From: Streptomyces sp. NBC_00344
GTDB taxonomy: Bacteria > Actinomycetota > Actinomycetes > Streptomycetales > Streptomycetaceae
Direction: 5' to 3'
Length of the DNA stretch: 64,000 nt
NCBI RefSeq assembly: GCF_036088315.1
Contig: NZ_CP107996.1
Location: forward strand, 6,933,001-6,997,000
A model generated the notes under the pieces. That model searched no databases. It was not told where the DNA came from and saw nothing but the letters and a program-made list of their open reading frames with translations. Within the stretch, counting starts at the first letter, position 1. Each line of letters opens with the position of its first letter. The position numbers and the translations under genes were made by a program. Of the stretch, positions 63,174 to 64,000 are shown in pieces.

Positions 63174-63530
63174 AGGTCAGCGGGCCCCATCGGTCCAGGC
63201 ACCGACCTTTCGTCTCAACTAACCAAGTCCACCCGTCTCATCCAACCTAGTCCACGCAGGTCAGCGTCGCGTGGACGACTAGCTTCCTTGAGACAGGACA
63301 TGCCCAGAGACGCGTTGCCGCATCGAGGTGGCATGCCTTCTGAGTGGTACGTCGTACGCGCGCCTTGTGACCCCCTGAGACCGGCCCTGTCCGTGCGGGT
63401 GCCTCCGGTCAGCACGGGTAGGGCCGCCAACTCCGCTCCCTATCAAATCCTGGGCTGGTCGGGCGCGTTCGGAGCGGCTACCCCATCTGCACAGCGAACC
63501 CCCTGATCAAGTCAACTGGAGGTTCGGGGC
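63174..63530. other. intergenic, no gene seen
   Basis: This lies between the DinB gene and the structured leader. No coding signal. It should include the promoter of the last gene, but I cannot assign one. Confidence 0.45.
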
Positions 63531-63577
63531 GTTGATCGTCTGCGTGTTCGACCTGTCGCAGCGTGTTAATCTGAACG

Positions 63578-63840
63578 GGACGCGGTAAAACGCGTCCACC
63601 CCCCTTTTCGAAGGGGGTAGAGACTCGATGAGCAGTCCTCCATCGAGACCCGCCAGATGTCTTCTGTACCGGGCCGTCGCCCCGGAAAACGAAGCGACGT
63701 GAGCTATGTCGTAAAGGCTGCACGACAGAACTCGACCAGGCCCCCTCCTTGTGGACGGGGGGCCTCTCAAGCCCGCCCGTTCAAAGGGGGGTCGGTCGAG
63801 TCTGTCTTGGCCGGTCCCCTCCTCCATTAGTCGAGGAAGA
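63578..63840 (+). ncRNA. hairpin-rich leader RNA (unknown class)
   Basis: Consecutive hairpins are readable: GGACGCG/CGCGTCC (63578-63597), CCCCCTT-TTCG-AAGGGGG with a UUCG loop (63600-63617), CTCGATG/CATCGAG (63624-63647), CCGGG/CCCGG (63669-63685) and CGACGT/ATGTCG (about 63695-63711). A further one is AGGCCCCC/GGGGGCCT (63738-63765), enclosed by ACTCGACC/GGTCGAGT (63730-63737 with 63794-63801). AAAGGGGGGT (63783-63792) can pair instead with ACCCCCCTTT (63598-63607). CCTC (63821) can cover the ribosome-binding site GAGG (63833). It matches no riboswitch class I know. Being just a GC-rich spacer is the alternative. Confidence 0.5.
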
Positions 63841-63844
63841 ATAA

Positions 63845-64000
63845 GTGACCGGTAATCAGAAGAAACTGATCGCAGTTGCCTGCTGCGTGATCACGTCCCT
63901 GCTTCTCGCCGATGCCTGCAAGGACGTGACCGCCGCGCTTGGCGCATCGACACTCGCCAGCGTCTCTGCTGGCGGAGGGGCGTTCGGCTTGTCCTGCGGC
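63845..64000 (+). CDS. small membrane or secreted protein, 3' end outside window
   Basis: GTG 63845, with GAGGAAG 5 nt upstream, opens VTGNQKKLIAVACCVITSLL, LADACKDVTAALGASTLASV and SAGGGAFGLSCG, and runs off the window. A basic start followed by a hydrophobic segment suggests a signal peptide or anchor. No family recognised. It lies directly behind the structured leader and may be controlled by it. Confidence 0.6.
   Translation, partial: MTGNQKKLIAVACCVITSLLLADACKDVTAALGASTLASVSAGGGAFGLSCG

Follow-up and report, generated by a model that had tools for sequence, protein, structure and literature searches.

Two mutually exclusive folds in a structured Streptomyces leader, one of which would hide the ribosome-binding site of a small membrane-protein gene

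The DNA analyzed here (the window; 64,000 nucleotides, C1:6933001-6997000, from a contig of 7,001,830 bases) contains near its right edge a long structured leader, followed on the plus strand by a small gene with a GTG start codon (63845..64000), which runs past the window end (L003:3846-4091). The right end of the contig is 4.8 kb away from this locus, and an identical 501-base copy is found, in inverted orientation, 4.8 kb from the left end, an arrangement that fits terminal inverted repeats. Beyond the window end, the minus strand (L003:5838-8645) encodes a large helicase with four helicase-associated domains, near the chromosome end. The gene behind the leader encodes an 81-aa protein predicted by a structure model as two long helices (residues 3-31 and 36-60; mean pLDDT 75), in agreement with the small membrane or secreted protein that the initial annotation had placed there. 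Named relatives of the protein are from Streptomyces. Pfam assigned it to no family, and NCBIfam and Pfam searches over 23 members of the protein family gave scattered weak matches only.

An extended -10-like element, TGTTAATCT (63564..63572, plus strand), was taken from the sequence as the presumed promoter and would put the RNA start at about 63579. Because a stricter scan for sigma-70 consensus promoters found none in the window, we infer a start near 63579 from this element and regard it as plausible. Promoter-like elements also occur upstream of several related leaders.

The region around the leader (63560-63860, 301 nt) folds at -146.3 kcal/mol, as compared with -110.3 +/- 5.4 kcal/mol in 100 dinucleotide shuffles, none of which was as stable (0/100; z -6.66). 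This confirms the strong fold of the roughly 260-nt leader recognized in the initial annotation. The hairpins listed there are present in the sequence, including those at 63578-63597 and 63600-63617 (the latter with a UUCG loop closed by a U-A pair), and so is the suggested cover over the ribosome-binding site, a hairpin that spans both the Shine-Dalgarno (SD) sequence at 63833-63839 and the GUG start at 63845. The reverse strand of the same 301 nt folds equally well (z -6.83), and the strand therefore had to be decided by comparison of relatives. In the window, the surplus stability resides mostly in the 3' half of the leader (z -6.32 for the 3' module, z -2.27 for the 5' domain).

Folding together with the comparison of related leaders divides this RNA into several parts, all on the plus strand. 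The 5' part (63579..63714), which includes the UUCG hairpin, is structure without demonstrated conservation. It is followed by helix P1, which pairs GACAGAACUCGACC (63724..63737) with GGUCGAGUCUGUC (63794..63806) and closes over two hairpins: P2 (63738..63768), which varies within the family and is missing from the subtype represented by loci L072, L079 and L080, and P3 (63771..63793 in the family register), whose 3' arm is GGUGG-like. In the minimum free energy (MFE) fold of the window the bases of P3 pair otherwise, still upstream, and imposing the family register there carries a penalty of 6.4 kcal/mol. A short linker separates the 3' strand of P1 from the anti-SD arm of P4 (63810..63853), the hairpin over the SD sequence GAGGAAG and the start codon, in which 63810-63817 pair with 63845-63853 and 63818-63824 with 63833-63839. 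A further helix, ALT, would form between GGGGGUCGGUC (63787..63797), in which the P3 3' arm continues into the start of the P1 3' strand, and GGCCGGUCCCC (63809..63819), which also serves as the anti-SD/anti-start arm of P4. Because ALT uses bases of both, it excludes P1/P3 and the outer part of P4.

Plain DNA searches recovered no relatives of this leader: in 295 genomes of the genus eight matched, comprising the genome of the window itself and seven short matches judged to be chance, and a search of plasmids and phages gave no leader relative. A scan of genome contigs with the single protein found nothing, and a second scan with a closer protein alignment was therefore used, which gave two loci, one of them on the same contig as G260. 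Queries P0010 and P0003 had no match in plasmids, nor did P0010 in phages and viral contigs. A profile search with the 81-aa protein, by comparison, detected distant relatives in 46/392 genus genomes (E <= 0.001), and upstream of some of these lay a shared leader anatomy that the DNA search had missed, with the common order CUCGACC ... GGUGGCCGGUCGAG ... ACCGGUCACC ... SD ... start.

Ten of these leaders were aligned (alignment A5), and a covariance model, R1, was built on P1 and P3. At E <= 0.05, R1 matched 18 of the 392 genus genomes, of which 12 were accepted (G262 with the 3' half only), so that the element is rare in the sampled genus by this strict model; G064, G132, G189, G222, G294 and G375 were read as chance or coding matches. 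Among 249 genomes of the family six matched, and the two accepted, G000 and G480, correspond to the window's own genome and to L102; G222, G565, G570 and G633 were again read as chance or coding. In 120 more widely drawn genomes five matched, two of them outside the family (G420 and G424). The gains from R1 include L073 as well as L072, L079 and L080, where the small membrane protein behind the leader is a more distant one. Of these, L073 (L073:1501-1653) consists of the 3' half of the leader, with a 5' half that resembles unrelated coding sequence, and it looks decayed because its gene frame stops after 24 codons and the 5' half of the leader is missing. R1 also has a weak match on the minus strand of the window (63711-63805, E 4e-5).

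The working set comprised 19 leaders from 18 genomes. A related leader before small membrane-protein genes thus occurs in 17 other genomes, 16 of the same genus and one from a different genus in this family; this last leader, L102, precedes a different small membrane protein and retains P1, P2, P3 and the SD hairpin. P1, a P2 of variable form, P3 and P4 are common to most of the leaders. The 32 loci L032-L063 yielded leaders at 12 (L032-L035, L038, L040, L042, L043, L047, L052, L053 and L063), of which L033 is the second copy of the window's leader and entered the tests as the window; L062 is a duplicate of L032. Left out, as having no visible motif, were 19 loci (L036, L037, L039, L041, L044-L046, L048-L051 and L054-L061), all of which still encode relatives of the protein (profile E <= 0.001). 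The L017 leader was added from a separate protein search of relatives. Four leaders (L047, L053, L052 and L017) were selected by eye for the ALT motif, and since R1 recovers one of them at E <= 1 (L053, E 0.11), their kinship is argued from ALT and from the protein. In G182 the leader and its gene occur twice in tandem, the two units having diverged in sequence (L034:496-626 and 1339-1503). The encoded proteins of the set measure about 60-100 aa, and in 17/19 leaders a frame of 63-97 codons with at least two hydrophobic stretches begins at the expected start; the membrane protein of L047 begins 4 nt downstream of the start position assigned in the set.

The presumed leaders measure 270-293 nt in L032, L035, L038 and L040; across all 14 leaders examined the range is 178-364 nt. 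A -35-like element, TTGYGATCA, was found upstream of 5/17 leaders (shuffled mean 0.024), the window not among them; its carriers are L032, the first unit of L034, L038, L040 and L102. This element could also be an operator, XRE-type regulators being nearby in some of the loci. Domain stabilities were computed for 14 leaders, leaving out L034b, L063, L052, L017 and L073, for which there was no promoter guess or which were incomplete. The 3' module had z-scores of -3.7 to -8.7 in the nine leaders of the CUCGACC/CUCAACC type tested, L102 among them, as compared with merely -1.2 to -2.3 in the five leaders L047, L053, L072, L079 and L080. Judged by comparison of these sequences, the conserved element is the 3' half of the leader (63715-63856).

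When folded as single sequences, 8/13 leaders (L032, both units of L034, L035, L038, L040, L042 and L063) formed P1, P2, P3 and the SD hairpin. For the window, the fold had P1 and the SD hairpin but joined P2 and P3 differently; L043 lacked the SD hairpin, L047 and L053 folded with ALT, and L052 paired otherwise. RNAalifold, applied to ten leaders with no structure supplied, returned the ALT helix, with double changes at 4 of its 13 pairs. Since single folds show the first arrangement and RNAalifold the second, the family encodes both states. RNAalifold on an 18-row alignment (A6) returned a 5-pair helix only, with no double changes, a poor result that probably stems from misregistered G-runs.

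The nine-pair core of ALT was canonical in 166/171 cells across the 19 leaders, with double changes at 5/9 pairs, while shuffling of partners gave 159.3 +/- 1.4 canonical cells and never reached 166 (0/5000). Once the four eye-picked leaders were removed, 131/135 cells were canonical, again with double changes at 5 pairs and 0/5000 shuffles as good; support was weaker in the eleven leaders of the CUCGACC/CUCAACC type, with 96/99 cells, three double-change pairs and 21/5000 shuffles. In L102, ALT has a U-A pair at a position where most others have C-G. The covariation that the initial annotation had recommended looking for is therefore found, in helices other than the 10-bp pair for which it was sought.

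We then compared duplex energies of strands taken from the same leader with those of strands taken from different leaders (20000 permutations, floor p 5e-5), in a test that, like the count of core cells, ignores phylogeny and for which the strands were placed by eye. Cognate pairing was stronger for ALT (-21.9 vs -18.7 kcal/mol; 18 leaders, p 5e-5), P1 (-21.0 vs -16.5 kcal/mol; 16 leaders, p 5e-5) and P4 (-16.8 vs -14.6 kcal/mol; 18 leaders, p 2.5e-4), as well as for P3 (n=13, p 0.012). When each cluster was represented by a single leader and L102 was added, ALT (n=15), P1 (n=13) and P4 (n=15) each reached p 5e-5. In the ten leaders of the CUCGACC/CUCAACC type alone, p was 0.010 for ALT, 1e-4 for P1 and 3e-4 for P4; P3 in a group of ten leaders gave p 2e-4. 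ALT remained significant without L047, L053, L052 and L017 (n=12, p 2.5e-4). These comparisons show that the strands of P1, P3, P4 and ALT pair better with partners from their own leader than with those from other leaders. At the level of sequence, mutually exclusive helices of the kind found in expression platforms are conserved in relatives.

A stretch of about 50 bases holds the two arms of ALT as an inverted repeat, which could in principle act at the DNA level, as an operator for a protein rather than as RNA. The ALT cells of the 19 leaders include 31 G-U and 1 A-C, and because the G-U cells would be mismatches on the other strand, selection appears to act on the RNA of the plus strand; this asymmetry, along with the cognate pairing to the SD region, makes an operator almost certainly the wrong explanation.

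The initial annotation had envisaged a different switch, in which a helix between 63598-63607 and 63783-63792 competes with the UUCG hairpin. The two segments, ACCCCCCUUU and AAAGGGGGGU, are fully complementary over 10 bp (-17.5 kcal/mol as an isolated duplex), and in 3/16 leaders (the window, L038 and L042) the best partner within the 5' domain beats at least 96% of shuffles, the other leaders beating fewer. This helix joins a C-run to a G-run, and when the bases of the 5' part were shuffled 200 times, an equal partner for the G-run arose in 3.5% of cases. Forcing it gives -126.9 vs -139.9 kcal/mol, a penalty of 13 kcal/mol, and over 16 leaders the 5' domain has no cognate preference for the P3/P1 3' strand (-19.7 vs -19.3 kcal/mol, p 0.28). 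The 5' domain is, moreover, poorly structured in most relatives (z above -2 in 11/14 leaders examined). We find this pairing scarcely credible as the switch. The complementarity itself holds but is not conserved, and the idea of switch-like alternative pairing survives with other partners, namely P1/P3 and the SD hairpin on one side and ALT on the other.

Taken together, these patterns suggest that the leader is probably a cis-acting translational switch for the small two-helix membrane protein, off by default. In the OFF state, P1 would close a junction of P2 and P3, leaving the anti-SD arm free to form P4, which would hide the start codon together with the Shine-Dalgarno site. If P1/P3 were opened by a signal, for which a small molecule, a protein, an RNA or RNA processing may be considered, this would allow the shared 3' strand (GGUGGCCGGU-like) to capture the anti-SD arm (ACCGGUCACC-like), forming ALT, which would block the outer part of P4 and expose the start region (ON). 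That the element is transcribed, that a change of state regulates translation, and that it does so in this direction are points we infer. As one of the two exclusive folds hides the ribosome-binding site, the leader probably represents an undescribed on/off control.

The predicted energetics bear on the default state. In the MFE folds of 17 leaders, the ALT 5' strand was paired upstream (OFF) in 14, and ALT was formed in 3. The energy cost of ALT ranged from 0 to 25 kcal/mol among leaders (mean 7.8), and in the window ALT was 13.8-17.7 kcal/mol less stable than OFF, so that a spontaneous equilibrium switch is not expected there. P1 and P3 are transcribed before the anti-SD arm, and a leader that is off by default, with a signal opening P1/P3, is the simplest reading. 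Among the 14 leaders whose MFE fold is OFF, forcing ALT made the SD stretch more likely to be unpaired in 12, often modestly, and less likely in L052 and L102. The gain is often small because the inner SD stem can persist, and opening of the start codon and the outer stem may be more important.

The strong preference for OFF in the window would also be expected if the leader simply sequestered the start region constitutively and sensed no signal, with a possibly toxic protein kept silent until RNA processing or the loss of an antisense RNA releases it. Type I toxin-antitoxin mRNAs (of the hok and tisB kind) encode a small hydrophobic protein behind a structured leader that hides the start region, and the present locus shares with them both the small, two-helix hydrophobic protein and the long leader concealing SD and start. 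It differs from them in the size of the proteins and in its covarying anti-sequestor, and the covariation of ALT across leaders is unneeded for simple sequestration. We therefore consider constitutive sequestration unlikely.

ALT is in addition a GC-rich hairpin, located downstream of the presumed promoter and ahead of the gene, and could be a terminator with P1/P3 as the antiterminator. Such transcription attenuation appears quite improbable, given that no T-run follows ALT, that there are 0 terminator-like sites with a T-run in 63300-64000, and that a terminator leaves unexplained the specific pairing of the anti-SD arm with the SD region in P4.

Ribosome-mediated attenuation would call for an upstream reading frame, and the window does contain one of 57 aa (63657-63830) that ends 14 nt before the start codon. 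Frames in 16 leaders nevertheless differ in start, stop and sequence, with a shared frame confined to the closely related L072, L079 and L080, and we rejected a conserved upstream frame as the control. L038 and L052 have no frame of at least 8 codons, a convincing SD was not seen, and we regard this explanation as very improbable.

The leader, for which we favor a translational switch, matched no RNA family in Rfam 15. Covariance models of Rfam 15 at the gathering threshold gave 0 matches in the whole window and 13 relative loci, and at E up to 10 the window had four matches, far below threshold, in line with the statement of the initial annotation that the leader fits no known riboswitch or ncRNA class. 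T-box leaders contain a GGUGG-containing strand and exert translational control in actinobacteria, a likeness to the present leader that is superficial only; Rfam includes T-box models, and none of them matched in the scans of the window and the relative loci. Translational riboswitches have expression platforms with a sequestor and an anti-sequestor, and the present leader resembles them in that the closing P1 competes with an SD-freeing helix and an anti-SD hairpin lies at the start codon. It is unlike them in its variable P2, the lack of an Rfam match and a gene without an obvious metabolite.

A full-text literature search, in which subscription papers were thinly covered, returned no description of this leader. 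A further comparison is with the dauA, livJ and pntA riboswitch candidates, which are rare Streptomyces-centered RNAs upstream of genes, as is the leader studied here (PMC11109978). According to this source, SD nucleotides are part of the dauA junction and of the pntA P2 stem, and the candidates precede STAS, LIVBP and pntA genes, so that their downstream genes differ from that of the present leader.

Within the main group the CUCGACC of P1 is kept, while P2 and the loops differ between leaders; because P2 is variable, no clear conserved ligand-binding core emerges. The more specific proposal that the leader is an undescribed riboswitch class, rare in Streptomycetaceae, whose candidate three-way junction senses a small molecule or ion and controls translation of the family of two-helix small membrane proteins, is tentative, and we hold it to be possible but rather doubtful. 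Were the switch model to hold, it would add a cis-regulatory RNA family, as yet unnamed, whose two-state anatomy is clear and whose test mutations are defined, and would tie an uncharacterized family of small membrane proteins to tight, off-by-default control. Such control would suggest that the protein is costly or harmful without a particular signal, the identity of which would reveal the protein's role.

Gene neighbors differ between leader loci. An XRE-type regulator, recognized by its Pfam HTH in L088 and L093 and by eye in L090, precedes the gene at these three loci together with small proteins, one of which Pfam assigned to DUF7848 in L088. The gene adjoins CutA1 in L091 and a DUF6777/PASTA protein in L092, and in L094/L095 it is flanked on one side by a kinase-like gene and on the other by a group that includes a cysG-like gene (by eye). 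A subgroup of the membrane proteins (L044, L049, L054, L059 and L061) has a different leader upstream of the gene, with an upstream ORF of ~50 codons (MHxLGxxGSTAW...PMF-stop, by eye in some) and the sequence TTCTGACxGAACTCGGAAGGATC between this ORF and the gene. A third leader type, GGCGCTC(T/C)GACG..., precedes yet another subgroup (L050, L051, L056 and L057), with a GGGAGGG- or GGAGGG-like stretch immediately 5' of the gene.
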